A stretch of 44,913 nt of DNA, taken from Planctomycetota bacterium (lineage in GTDB: Bacteria > Planctomycetota > Phycisphaerae > WQYP01). Both the position numbers and the translations under genes were made by a program. The notes beneath the pieces were generated by a model. The model was not told the origin of the DNA. It saw only the letters and a program-made list of their open reading frames with translations, and did no database searches. This document shows, piece after piece, positions 163-4,415 of this stretch; the stretch's first letter is position 1, and each line of letters begins with the position of its first letter. The stretch lies in NCBI GenBank assembly GCA_021831565.1, contig JAKBMM010000020.1, positions 1 to 44,913 on the forward strand, written 5' to 3'.

Positions 163-185
163 GAAAAGGTGACATCCACCTTTTC
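163..185. repeat. Intact palindrome, left end of RAYT cassette copy 1
   Basis: Perfect inverted repeat: GAAAAGGTG, a five-base loop ACATC, then CACCTTTTC. The same palindrome returns inverted at 454 and 2643, and is split by an intron at 1315/2368. Short hairpin repeats next to Y1-type transposase genes are the REP elements those transposases act on. This uninterrupted copy gives the empty-site reference for the intron insertion in copy 2. Confidence 0.8.
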
Positions 186-187
186 CA

Positions 188-415
188 TCATGCCGCCAAG
201 TGCCCATCCCCTTGGGGACGAAGCAGTAAATGCCAATGGTTGGGCATCAGGCAAAATGCAAATACCTCCACCGTGGCACGCTCTTAGGCCGCCACCAGCA
301 GGTTGGTGAACGCCAGGTAGTCCCCCGCCTTGCGAAAAACGCGTCTGAGCCCATTCCCGCGGTTGAGCACATGATACACCGCGCCGCCCGAAGCGGTCCG
401 TGCGGTTCTCGGCTT
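188..415 (-). pseudogene. RAYT (REP-associated tyrosine transposase) 5' fragment, copy 1
   Basis: This is a near-identical duplicate of the minus-strand sequence at 2377-2604, offset by 2,189 bases with no insertions or deletions. It encodes the front of a Y1-type transposase, with the conserved YHV-NRGN and CLMPxHWHLLL segments; the second carries the HxH metal-binding motif of the HUH/Y1 fold. Here the expected start codon ATG reads AAG, and the frame hits TGA just after the DGDL-like motif (DGHL in this copy), so the catalytic tyrosine region is absent. It is not functional as a protein. Its interest is as part of a palindrome-bounded cassette. Confidence 0.75.
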
Positions 416-453
416 AGGCCCAAAGCCTATTTCCAGCCTCTACAAATTTCAAT

Positions 454-472
454 AAAGGTGGATGTCACCTTT
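454..472. repeat. Palindrome, right end of RAYT cassette copy 1
   Basis: AAAGGTG, loop GATGT, CACCTTT. This is the same palindrome as at 163-185 in opposite orientation, so the RAYT fragment lies between inverted copies. It is one base pair shorter or mismatched at the outer end compared with the left copy. Confidence 0.75.
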
Positions 473-603
473 TCGTGTTCCGACCAAAGCGGCTAAAAGA
501 AGAAGCAGCGGCGCCAGCCAGGCGGTGTGGCGGGAAGATAAGAACTGCCGGTCGATGTCACGCATCACTGAAATCCTGCTTGTCCAACCGCAACTTCAAC
601 TTC

Positions 604-780
604 TCATTCGCCTCGACTGCCGCCGGAGGTTTCAAACCCGATCACGCGGGTTTTATACTTTGATTCCACCCGCTTGGCCCAGCGAAACATCCGGTGCTTG
701 TCCCCACCGCAGCGTTTAACGATCCGCCGCCGCGAGGCGCGAACCCGTTCCACCACCGCGTCATCTTTGAATTCAGTCAT
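604..780 (-). CDS. Small partner protein of PIN-domain toxin (probable antitoxin)
   Basis: This 58-residue protein starts MTEFKDDAVVERVRASRRRI. Its ATG overlaps the last eight bases of the upstream PIN-domain gene, so the two are almost certainly translated together. Small charged proteins with a KDD-x-VVE-x-VR start sit directly after PIN genes of this subtype in many genomes and are taken to be the partner antitoxin; that is recollection of gene neighbourhoods, not a search. No DNA-binding fold can be assigned by eye. The order, toxin first, is the reverse of classical vapBC. The longer open frame reaching back to 879 lies inside the toxin gene, and I rejected it because of the coupled ATG. 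Confidence 0.6.
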   Translation of the reverse strand: MTEFKDDAVVERVRASRRRIVKRCGGDKHRMFRWAKRVESKYKTRVIGFETSGGSRGE

Positions 781-1246
781 GGTAGGTCTCCGTGAGCAAA
801 AGGTCCGGTGTTGTAACGATTGGCGCCGCCAGGCCAAGTTCGGTGTTGACAAGTTGCAAATGCCGGACTTTATTGGCATTGGCCAGGTGCCGGCAGTTCC
901 AAGTCAGTACGAAGTGCATCCCGTAATAAGATGCCATGGCCAAGTGATACGCGTCCCCCAGCGGTATGAGTTTTCGTCGCAAGTAAACGGATACGATTTC
1001 CTCAACCGCGGGGACAATTTCCAAAAGCGGCATGGACTCGGCCATAGCCAGTGCTTCAGGCCGCCCCGGATATTCGCCCTCCTGAAGCTCACCAATGACG
1101 AACGCCGAAGTATGCAGGGTGTAATGTGGGCGCTCCTCGCGCCACCAACGTCGCGTGCTCTCCCGCCGGGCGATCATCTCCGGCTCGTGTCGAACCTCAT
1201 AATAAAAGCTCGGAATCGTGGTCTCAATGTAAACCGATCGCTTCAT
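773..1246 (-). CDS. PIN-domain toxin (VapC-like ribonuclease)
   Basis: This 157-residue protein starts MKRSVYIETTIPSFYYEVRH. The first acidic site is in the YIET segment. The middle has a conserved ELQEGEYPG segment and the C-terminal half has GDAYHLAMASYYGMHFVLTW followed by NCRHLANANK. These are the landmarks of a PIN-domain subfamily of metal-dependent ribonucleases found as type II toxins. Acidic residues in YIET, GEL and GDAxH would form the active site. The gene overlaps a 58-codon partner by eight bases. No Shine-Dalgarno is visible; a TAGAAT hexamer lies nine bases before the ATG. The module sits among mobile-element fragments, consistent with horizontal arrival. Confidence 0.8.
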   Translation of the reverse strand: MKRSVYIETTIPSFYYEVRHEPEMIARRESTRRWWREERPHYTLHTSAFVIGELQEGEYPGRPEALAMAESMPLLEIVPAVEEIVSVYLRRKLIPLGDAYHLAMASYYGMHFVLTWNCRHLANANKVRHLQLVNTELGLAAPIVTTPDLLLTETYHD

Positions 1247-1314: not shown

Positions 1315-1330
1315 GAAAAGGTGACATCCA
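1315..1330. repeat. Left half of the palindrome interrupted by the group II intron
   Basis: The sequence GAAAAGGTGACATCCA matches positions 163-178 exactly, and the rest of the palindrome (CCTTTTCC) resumes at about 2368 after the intron. Its last six bases, CATCCA, are the proposed IBS1 of the intron. Confidence 0.75.
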
Positions 1331-1676
1331 GTGTGAAAAGGAAAATCTGTGTTCAAGATGAGAGTAGGTCTCTCGCAATCGGGTCGCAGAACCGGGTTGC
1401 AAATCAGTTCGAGCTGCGACGGTCAAGAGCCGTGGTGGTGAACGTCGAACCAAAAGGCGCGGCACTATCGCGTCAGATGAGGTCCGCAAAGGCGAACGCA
1501 AGTGAACCGCTGATGAAGGGTCGAAACACCTACCAGACGAGGTCAAAACCGGGGGTATGGATGGGCTCCGGGAACAGTGGCGGAGGGGTTCTGCAGACTG
1601 CCGCCACGGCCTCCGGCCTAGAGGCGGCGCGAGTGCGGATCAGGCTTGAACACGGAACCTGTGAACCTGTCGTCCC

Positions 1677-2273
1677 GCGGAATACCCCGGCTGTCCGTTC
1701 GAGCGTTATGCGGATGATATCGTGATCCATTGTCGGACCATGGAGGAGGCGCAGAAGGTCCGGACGGCGGTGGAGGAACGTCTGCGGCGCTGCAAACTGG
1801 AGGCGCACCCGACCAAGACACGCATAGTGTATTGTCGGGATTCGAACCGTCGCCAGGACCATGAGCACACCCAGTTCAACTTCATGAGCTACAGCTTTCA
1901 ACCCCGGATGGCGAAGAACCGCTGGGGCAAGCTGTTCACCAGCTTCCTACCGGCCATCAGCCGGAAGGCTGGCCAAGCAGTCGTGCGTGAGATTCGCGAC
2001 TGGGGCCTGCACCGGAAGAGTGATTTGGGACTGGAAGATTTGGCGCGAATGATCAACCCGATCCTCCGTGGCTGGATCACTTACTATGGCCGCTACTATC
2101 CGACGGCCCTCCAGCGTGTCTTCCGCCATCTCAATGCGCGGTTGGTGCGTTGGGCGCAACGGAAATACAAGCGATTCCTCACCCACGAGCTGCGGGCTTG
2201 GCACTGGTTACGCCGTGTGGCGCAAGGTCGGCCGAGCCTGTTTGCACACTGGGCGGAAGGGTTTGTGCCGTGA
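1677..2273 (+). pseudogene. Group II intron reverse transcriptase/maturase, C-terminal fragment
   Basis: In frame from about 1677 it reads AEYPGCPFERYADDIVIHC, with the YADD polymerase motif at 1707-1718. It continues through HPTKTRIVYC and a FxFMSYSFQPR segment to the maturase region GWITYYGRYYPTALQRVF and ARLVRWAQRKYKRF, ending at 2273. That is the palm and the thumb/maturase domain X of LtrA-type proteins. Fingers and the front of the palm (RT blocks 0-4, about 200 residues) are missing: upstream the frame meets a stop in what is still intron RNA sequence. It cannot be an active polymerase. Some ORF callers would start it at 1722, which cuts through the YADD motif. Confidence 0.85.
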
Positions 2274-2293
2274 ATACAGCGATGGGATGATGG

Positions 2294-2327
2294 GAGCCGG
2301 ATGAATGGAGACATTCACGTCCGGTTC
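2294..2327 (+). ncRNA. Group II intron domain V (catalytic hairpin)
   Basis: A 34-nt hairpin starts GAGCCGGATGA and ends TCACGTCCGGTTC, with GGAGACA between. The lower stem pairs GAGCCGGA with TCCGGTTC (G-U allowed), and the conserved AGC triad is present near the 5' side. Size and sequence match domain V of bacterial group II introns. A domain VI-like stem follows at once. Confidence 0.85.
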
Positions 2328-2376
2328 TGCGAGAGCGTGGGGGTGAAACTCCCCCGCGCCACTCACCCCTTTTCCA

Positions 2377-2642: not shown

Positions 2643-2662
2643 AAAGGTGGATGTCACCTTTT
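2643..2662. repeat. Palindrome, right end of RAYT cassette copy 2
   Basis: AAAGGTG, loop GATGT, CACCTTTT, the same as at 454. A second partial copy follows directly (CCCACCTTTTCGTGTTC, to about 2687), so the repeat has begun to tandemise here. It ends next to the stop codon of the GH140-like gene. Confidence 0.75.
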
Positions 2663-2687: not shown

Positions 2688-4415
2688 TTAATTCATCCGC
2701 GTCAACAGAAGAACCCAGTCGTAGTCGTCGGGACGTTTGGGAAGCGAACAAATACCATACGTGGCCGGCAGTGTTTGAACGGGAAACGCATGTTTTCCCG
2801 TGCGCGGGTTGAACCATTGGGCATGGTAATGGAATTGACGTTGGTTATTCATAAGTATCAACGTTGCCGCCGCTTTGGCATCACTGCCCTCCGGGAACCA
2901 GATGATGTAGAGGGTGTCGCCATCGGATCGGGCCAACGGCTGAAAGGAATCGCCCAGAAATGGATAGGATGGCCGATGCCCTTGCAACTCGGAGCGGGCC
3001 AGCGGTGTGAGGGAATCGCCAAGAGGGATAGCCATTTCCACAGCCCCGGGACGAGGCTGAGTTTTCCACCAGTCAACTGATTCATAGAAGGTTTTCATAT
3101 ATGCCATCTGCTGCGCACCGACGTAATTCATCGCCACCCACCACGGCTGCGATTTTCCCCAATCTTTCCAAAATTTCGTGTCGGAAGGCCCCTGCGTTGG
3201 ATACCATAATCCGTTGGCACCATACGTATATCCGCAGCATCCCGCCTGCATGGCGTGCCAGGCGGCGCGGCGTGTATCGCTGGTCTTAAACCATCGGATA
3301 AATTCGTAGCGAGCTTCGCCCTCAATGACCGGTTTGCCGTAATTCCACCCCTGAGTATAAATATAGGTTGGCGGTACCGTTCCGGGACTGTTTCCGTGGG
3401 CACCTTGGTACATGATGAAATCATACCATGGCTGGCTCCACGCCTGATGTTTGTCGCGGGCGTAAAACCAAGGGTGTACGGACATCGCCCGTTTGTAAGG
3501 ATCGTTCGCCTTGATGTAGGCCCCCAAGGCAAGCACTTTGGCAACGGGTGCGTGGGGAGTGTTGTATTCGCCGCAGACCAGCCAAGTGACGGCGTTGGCA
3601 CCATAGCGGGCGATAAAGTAGCGCCAGAGAAATTTCCACTGCTCCAGAGTATAGGTTGGTAACTTGGGCCAATTAAAATCCAGGATGACCGCCGGGATTA
3701 TTCCGGCATTGTTGGCGTATTGGATATACGCATCAACTTTCCGCCAATAAACCATATCGAATTTACCACCCTTGAGCAGATCCATGAACGCTCCCAAAGG
3801 TCCTGGTGTATACCCTGAGCCGAGGAACCCCATCTGGGCAATCGTGAACCCCTGCGCTTGGCGTTTGTTAATGAGGGCCTTGTACATGGATGGGATGCCC
3901 GGATGGTCGCAATGATTAAACGGAACCAGATTCGAAGGACAAAACCACCAGGTATCGCCCAGCCAGAAGAAAGGCGTTCCATCCGAATATGTCAGATAGT
4001 GATGATCGGGAGAGACGCGTAGAAAACCGCCATGGCGATATAACGGATTTCCGTCCGTGGCGGGTAGAACGTTAAATGTTCCAGCACGGGTTTGCAATCC
4101 TGCGTCATGCACATTGCACGTCACCCGATACGACCATGCGCCCGACGCAGTCGGAGAAAAACGGACCGCCCACACATCGCCGCCATCCCAAAATCCATGT
4201 ACATGGAATGTCTGCCCGTTTGGCCCAACGAAATCAGCGGATAAATTGACCTGCGACCATGGCTGATCGTAGTGATGAACAGCCTTGAATCGAAACTCCG
4301 CCGGTTGCCATTGATGTGCTGGTGCAAGGGAGGATTTTTCCGCCTTGGCCTCGGCCGGCAACAATAGGCCCGTCACCGCGCTCCCGGTGAGCTTCATAAA
4401 TTCCCGTCGATCCAT
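2688..4415 (-). CDS. Tat-exported glycoside hydrolase, GH140/apiosidase-like (DUF5060-DUF4038)
   Basis: This 575-residue protein starts MDRREFMKLTG, a twin-arginine-type signal, so it should be exported folded. An Ig-like DUF5060 domain (about 40-125, with FxVHGFWDGG) precedes a TIM-barrel DUF4038 domain (about 140-450, with FFWLGDTWW). LVCGEYNTP holds the likely acid/base glutamate and VIEGEARYEF the likely nucleophile. The C-terminal 90 residues resemble the beta-sandwich that closes this family. Members attack side chains of plant pectin such as apiose on rhamnogalacturonan II; the actual substrate here is unknown. GGAG lies eight bases before the ATG. It is monocistronic and abuts the mobile-element nest on its 3' side. 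Confidence 0.75.
   Translation of the reverse strand: MDRREFMKLTGSAVTGLLLPAEAKAEKSSLAPAHQWQPAEFRFKAVHHYDQPWSQVNLSADFVGPNGQTFHVHGFWDGGDVWAVRFSPTASGAWSYRVTCNVHDAGLQTRAGTFNVLPATDGNPLYRHGGFLRVSPDHHYLTYSDGTPFFWLGDTWWFCPSNLVPFNHCDHPGIPSMYKALINKRQAQGFTIAQMGFLGSGYTPGPLGAFMDLLKGGKFDMVYWRKVDAYIQYANNAGIIPAVILDFNWPKLPTYTLEQWKFLWRYFIARYGANAVTWLVCGEYNTPHAPVAKVLALGAYIKANDPYKRAMSVHPWFYARDKHQAWSQPWYDFIMYQGAHGNSPGTVPPTYIYTQGWNYGKPVIEGEARYEFIRWFKTSDTRRAAWHAMQAGCCGYTYGANGLWYPTQGPSDTKFWKDWGKSQPWWVAMNYVGAQQMAYMKTFYESVDWWKTQPRPGAVEMAIPLGDSLTPLARSELQGHRPSYPFLGDSFQPLARSDGDTLYIIWFPEGSDAKAAATLILMNNQRQFHYHAQWFNPRTGKHAFPVQTLPATYGICSLPKRPDDYDWVLLLTRMN

Follow-up and report, generated by a model that had tools for sequence, protein, structure and literature searches.

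A group II intron within the terminal palindrome of a RAYT element from Planctomycetota, and evidence that its target is read by EBS/IBS pairing

Introduction

Bacterial group II introns were assigned three types of target in a 2015 review, being homing sites, terminators and attC sites (PMC4424553). RmInt1 of Sinorhizobium meliloti (IIB3/class D), which is associated with ISRm2011-2 and thus has a multicopy mobile element as its home, lacks an endonuclease, recognizes its target by EBS/IBS pairing from -13 to +1 and prefers single-stranded DNA at replication forks (PMC8914252). Group IIC (class C) introns, including those of the IIC-attC type, have many-copy short inverted repeats as homes (PMC4424553, PMC7923331); their domain V carries a CGC triad, their EBS1 pairing comprises 3-4 bp, and a hairpin replaces IBS2, with no IBS2-EBS2 pairing reported (PMC7923331). 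Class E and CL1 group IIB introns with truncated IEPs are located beside the attC sites of halophiles, which are also palindromic recombination sites; neither a conserved exon nor an EBS matching a dispersed repeat has been reported in their case (PMC7923331). In Pseudomonas putida KT2440, two of the nine copies (22%) of a group II intron are located within REP sequences, no mechanism being given, and REP palindromes also serve as landing sites for the mobile elements ISPpu9 and ISPpu10, which employ DNA transposases (PMC1525189).

The window analyzed in the current work, by which we mean the whole stretch of 44,913 nucleotides, constitutes contig C73 in the assembly of a Planctomycetota bacterium (2.8 Mb, 86 contigs), and a RAYT element within it has a terminal palindrome that is interrupted by a group II intron. 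This intron resembles RmInt1 in belonging to an endonuclease-less IIB-type lineage with a multicopy mobile element as home, yet RmInt1 targets an insertion sequence whereas the window intron targets the short palindrome that terminates a RAYT element and is dispersed by the RAYT transposase. It shares short inverted repeats of many copies with group IIC introns, from which it differs by an AGC triad, a 6 bp EBS1 and the presence of an EBS2, while the hairpin is not needed in its relatives. In contrast to the class E and CL1 introns, the match of its lineage to a dispersed repeat is exact and recurrent, and in contrast to the P. putida KT2440 intron this lineage displays EBS1/EBS2-palindrome pairing which recurs with different palindromes. 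Unlike ISPpu9 and ISPpu10, it is a retroelement reading its site by RNA-DNA pairing. A literature search covering mainly non-subscription papers found no study on group II introns in combination with RAYTs or REPINs, and none on EBS matching to RAYT palindromes. The new part is that the usual pairing rules are here applied to a short palindrome which an unrelated transposase has dispersed, apparently more than once.

Results

Anatomy and boundaries of the intron

The coordinates of the features are collected in Table 1. An Rfam search returned RF00029 and RF01999 at the intron with scores that both exceed the gathering scores, and a GUGYG-type 5' end (GTGTG) is present at position 1331. The order at the locus is exon ...AAAAGGTGACATCCA, intron GTGTG...ACTCACC and CCTTTTCC..., the palindrome GAAAAGGTGACATCCACCTTTTC being broken by the intron after GACATCCA. 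When the flanks are rejoined (AAAAGGTGACATCCA+CCTTTTCCATCATGCCGCC), they equal the empty cassette beginning at position 164, and both intron ends are thereby fixed. The preliminary description, made from the sequence alone, was correct in placing a group II intron inside the palindrome of a RAYT-type cassette and in regarding the second cassette as an empty-site control.

The empty-site comparison places the 3' end at 2367 (ACTCACC), with which the corresponding comparison in G069, a genome described below, agrees. An end at 2366 (...CTCAC) was considered and rejected, since the empty/filled comparison in the two genomes assigns the extra C to the intron. RAY is the usual 3' end consensus of group II introns. 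The window intron instead ends in ACC, as do nearly all close relatives (ACTCACC, with a C after ACTCAC), whereas the Bradyrhizobium relatives have ACTCGAC ahead of an IS3-type exon; the ACC ending is a variation on the consensus and no ground for exclusion from the group II family. With the 3' end at 2367, domain VI, read by eye, has its unpaired A at -7, the usual place of the branch point. The domain V triad is AGC according to the Rfam alignment.

Table 1. Features of the intron, its host palindrome and the RAYT cassettes (positions within the window)
Feature	Position	Strand	Evidence
Cassette 1: RAYT remnant with an empty palindrome at both ends; empty-site control	164..473	unassigned	
Interrupted palindrome, 5' part AAAAGGTGACATCCA (IBS2 AGGTG and IBS1 CATCCA)	1316..1330	+	Identical to 17 empty copies
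Group II intron, 1,037 nt, GTGTG...ACTCACC, non-autonomous	1331..2367	+	Rfam matches; empty-site comparison; ends common to relatives
5' part of domain I, RF01999 (group-II-D1D4-2)	1360..1477	+	97.7 bits, E 6e-19
EBS2 CACCT, pairing with exon AGGTG at -12 to -8	1527..1531	+	Covariation with IBS2 in relatives
EBS1 TGGATG, 6/6 pairing with exon CATCCA, domain I hairpin loop	1558..1563	+	Covariation in 25 relatives; folds
Junction of the ~816-nt internal deletion (5' part of RT gene)	1677..1686	+	BLAST against full-length G017 relative
Remnant of intron-encoded RT/maturase: C-terminal RT, thumb, X (GIIM)	1722..2273	+	TIGR04416 positions 217-352 of 353; PF08388
Domains V and VI, including the 3' splice site	2292..2367	+	RF00029, 57.2 bits
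Interrupted palindrome, 3' part CCTTTTC (IBS3 = C2368)	2368..2374	+	Rejoins to empty site
N-terminal RAYT (Y1 transposase) remnant, 85 aa	2377..2634	-	NF047646 E 8e-5; PF01797 E 2e-4
Cassette 2 right-end palindrome, intact	2643..2662	-	

Host palindrome and RAYT cassettes

Exact copies of AAAAGGTGACATCCA number 18 in the 2.8 Mb genome (0 for a reversed-pattern control), with 17 of them being empty and a single one carrying the intron; within the window, the 20-mer AAAAGGTGACATCCACCTTT has three matches compared to 0 in 100 shuffles. The RAYT of both window cassettes is an N-terminal remnant of a protein encoded on contig C65 of the same genome, where an intact 225-aa Y1 (HUH) transposase lies between both palindromes, this being the organization of a RAYT element. 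This protein attains 58 bits with PF01797 (cut-off 23) and 67 bits with NF047646, under the cut-off of 80 for the latter, and the remnant next to the intron shares 87% identity with it over 75 aa. The feet of the palindrome are ACGCG or ACACG, and inspection by eye revealed no classical GTAG/GGAG-type tetranucleotide. An assembly artefact at the window junction is unlikely, since the pattern was found again in a single-contig genome (G069).

Between the two cassettes a small PIN-domain protein is encoded (773-1246, minus strand; PF01850 just under its cut-off), followed by a 58-aa ORF, and the pair (604-1246, minus strand) looks like a VapC-type toxin-antitoxin system. An ordinary apiosidase-like glycoside hydrolase (PF13204 and DUF5060; 2688-4415, minus strand) adjoins the second cassette.

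Loss of the RT gene and class of the intron

A full-length relative from G017 measures 1,853 nt versus 1,037 nt for the window intron, and BLAST aligned the latter to it in two pieces (query 1-347 and 356-1037), from which the position of the deletion was taken. Approximately 816 nt are missing and therefore only the C-terminal part of the RT/maturase, from YADD onward, is left of what would be a complete gene. Because of this loss the window intron cannot move by itself, and since the only other GIIM match in its genome is a 5'-truncated copy on contig C2, it is non-autonomous within its assembly.

The IEP of the G017 relative contains RVT_1 and GIIM and no endonuclease domain, as is a feature of classes C, D, E and F, the window copy itself being truncated. 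Recognition of the target is of the IIB type, as both IBS1-EBS1 and IBS2-EBS2 pairings are present according to their covariation with the exons (see below). A reading as a class C intron beside a terminator hairpin was ruled out by the AGC triad, where group IIC has CGC, by the EBS2 and by sites of relatives that do not fold; the 6-bp EBS1 pairing is likewise not a group IIC feature.

Recognition of the target by EBS/IBS pairing

Domain I sequences of 25 relatives were aligned and compared with the 5' exon belonging to each one of them, with a G-U pair counted as half in the EBS1/IBS1 score. Own pairs reached a mean of 5.4 out of 6, versus 3.6 for the exons of other introns. The EBS1/IBS1 total was attained by 0 of 20,000 permutations, and the same was true of the EBS2/IBS2 total, these values not being exact probabilities because the sequences are related. 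Individually matched EBS1/IBS1 cases are GGTGCG/CGCACC, AAAGGG/CCCTTT, GTTTCA/TGAAAC, AGTCGT/ACGACT and TTTCGT/ACGAAA. The early proposal that TGGATG constitutes the EBS1 complementing CATCCA is thus upheld by covariation with the exons, and the fold by which it was to be verified gave the expected outcome, in that a consensus fold with compensatory changes and a single-sequence fold agree on a hairpin loop of domain I. As EBS2 pairs with the palindrome too, every recognized base lies within the palindrome.

Recurrence in a genome of another family

G069 is a complete, single-contig genome of 7.2 Mb from another family of the same class. A census with its own intron yielded two identical full-length IEP-less copies of 717 nt, a 5' fragment of 91 nt and an internal piece of 97 nt. 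All three intron 5' ends abut AAAGAGTGATGTCCCCTT(T/A), a palindrome with 16 occurrences at up to three mismatches (0 in the control), so that 3 of 16 carry an intron or its 5' fragment. The EBS1 of these introns, AAAGGG, differs from that of the window intron and matches the CCCTTT of the palindrome exactly, and the RAYT genes between G069 palindromes share 44-46% identity with the RAYT of the window's genome. The two full copies, 3.2 kb apart and in opposite orientation, have unlike sequence outside the palindrome, including the 3' side; since they are identical and this close together, one may stem from the other by recombination rather than homing. The reverse complement of the G069 palindrome, AAAGGGGACATCACTCTTT, is evidently related to AAAGGTGACATCCACCTTT. 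Compared with the window, the G069 intron occupies the other strand and another position and has another EBS1, and we infer that the two insertions are separate adaptations. The 91-nt fragment (L234 2121-2255, corresponding to G069 C1:4159620-4159754) is flanked by palindromes that face each other and belong to two adjacent full-length RAYT elements.

The suggestion that the intron targets a multicopy home is supported in G069, where the occupied palindromes match the EBS1 of the local intron. In the window's genome it is not shown, because just one of 18 palindromes is occupied and because another 5' intron fragment, on contig C16, lies at an unrelated exon, ..GACTGAGG. Copies at unrelated sites had been named beforehand as evidence against such targeting, and this fragment is in part a case of that kind.

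Sites of other relatives

The exon of the G023 intron is identical at 21 of 22 positions to a second dispersed repeat, GGCGTGGCAATTTTTCCGGGCA (type-B, REPIN-like), the copies of which frequently form inverted pairs of some 100-200 bp. When up to three mismatches were allowed, the window's genome contained 42 matches to the 18-nt core of this repeat (control 9), whereas 67 were counted in G023 (control 3) and 141 in a same-genus genome (control 5). The G023 exon is the only one with a close match; a weaker resemblance, from 15/22 down to 9/22 positions, is seen for the exons of G025, G017 (two) and G027 (two), and about 87 bp from one of the G017 sites there is an inverted partner. Both 5' junctions of G027 have GCGCCTGAAAAATTGGC in common, and their being a high-copy repeat was not confirmed in the 375 kb sampled. 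No transposase was seen near the type-B repeat. The repeat is of high copy number and its units, which have GGCGTGGCAATTTTTCCGGGCA ends and variable interiors, are widespread in the family of the window's genome and also present in G069 (L138, L139, L025, L141, L159-L188). In the same-genus genome G001 (contig C17; L025/L027), an intron with an internal deletion is fused to the type-B repeat family, the intron letters near position 320 directly abutting a copy of GTGGCAATTTTTCCGGGC.

Judged by eye from the sequence, the homes of the G348 copy and of the Bradyrhizobium group are apparent transposase genes, of the ISL3 type for the former and the IS3 type for the latter. REP targeting is therefore not universal; RAYT/REP palindromes are prominent among the homes of the lineage in Planctomycetota, and palindromes and transposase genes taken together mean that the lineage favours mobile-element homes. 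The distant class-level matches L127-L132 added no 5' junction at which both exon and EBS1 could be used.

Hairpin or sequence

As DNA, the left-end window palindrome forms a hairpin of 9 bp with -8 kcal/mol (z -4.3), while the single-stranded DNA of the G069 and type-B sites has values of -1 and 0 kcal/mol, respectively. The insertion point also differs, being inside the 3' arm in the window versus the palindrome end in G069. As there is hardly any folding at the G069 and type-B sites, the choice of target seems to follow ordinary EBS/IBS pairing, i.e. recognition by sequence and not by hairpin. Base pairing accounts for all sites with a known EBS1, the hairpin for only one, and the hairpin angle of the preliminary description, in which the insertion was compared with those of class C introns, is not supported.

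Discussion

Considering the anatomy, the empty sites, the EBS/IBS covariation, the RAYT nature of the elements and the recurrence in a genome of another family, all of which are observed, it appears likely that a RAYT element was invaded at its terminal palindrome, through retrohoming, by a group II intron of an endonuclease-less lineage with IIB-type recognition. The intron RNA would recognize AGGTG-A-CATCCA/C, wholly inside the palindrome, with EBS2 (CACCT) and EBS1 (TGGATG) pairing with an exposed DNA strand into which the intron would then reverse-splice. Each copy of the palindrome would represent a ready target because the RAYT system would have scattered it over the genome. By analogy with RmInt1, insertion may proceed through single-stranded DNA at the replication fork, and the window copy would have moved either before its RT gene was lost or in trans. 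The same lineage would have homed more than once, to different palindromes, through changes in EBS1 and EBS2, and the multicopy nature of the palindrome may be what favours it.

A more far-reaching and more tentative proposal, for which the case is not quite even, is that an endonuclease-less IIB-type lineage of Planctomycetota is specialized in RAYT/REP and REPIN-like palindromes, follows successive families of these by EBS1/EBS2 changes and so parasitizes the dispersal of another element. Insertion could instead be opportunistic, by homing or ectopic retrotransposition at any EBS1/EBS2 match, with palindromes occupied as intergenic, multicopy and harmless positions and no specialization involved. 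The single occupied copy in the window's genome, the relatives in transposase genes and the one unrelated exon are consistent with this, and a neutral intergenic position would be retained too; nevertheless, we regard it as rather unlikely, given that all three 5' ends in G069 share the same exact position within a repeat of 16 copies, for which random choice of sites would give a probability of roughly 1e-6 per insertion, and that two different palindrome families contain introns with an individually matched EBS1.

It is improbable that the introns were carried as cargo of the REP system, by RAYT activity or inter-palindrome recombination, instead of homing. The 91-nt fragment between palindromes of two neighbouring RAYT elements and the two identical, closely spaced and oppositely oriented full copies in G069 would fit such hitchhiking, yet the intron ends are complete and lie at a single exact point, the 3'-side sequences of the two full copies are unlike, and an exact EBS/IBS match is found in each lineage. 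Guidance by the palindrome as a stem-loop, as practised by class C and attC introns (PMC4424553, PMC7923331) and as the stable fold of the window palindrome would permit, is most improbable, since the G069 and type-B sites do not fold, EBS2 is present and covarying, unlike in class C (PMC7923331), the triad is AGC rather than CGC, and the insertion point is not constant.

If the proposed specialization of the lineage is true, it would add a further kind of multicopy home to terminators, attC sites and IS genes. An intron reading RAYT palindromes would obtain a renewable supply of mostly harmless sites, because these palindromes are dispersed by their own transposase. The system lends itself to direct testing, given a short palindrome, a known set of EBS letters and the occurrence of natural variants that have different palindromes. 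Single-stranded DNA at the replication fork is the presumed substrate of both IS200/RAYT-like transposases and endonuclease-less introns, and the system may for this reason bear on how endonuclease-less introns find their targets.

Two MAGs of different genera, G022 and G000, share stretches of 1.6-2.7 kb with 99.9-100% identity and the same RAYT palindromes (L110/L122, L113/L123 and L115/L011), which probably represents cross-contamination of bins. In a more distant relative, from a Peptococcaceae MAG (L052), the 5' exon reads YYIRYADD, and this intron may sit inside another reverse transcriptase gene, i.e. as nested introns.
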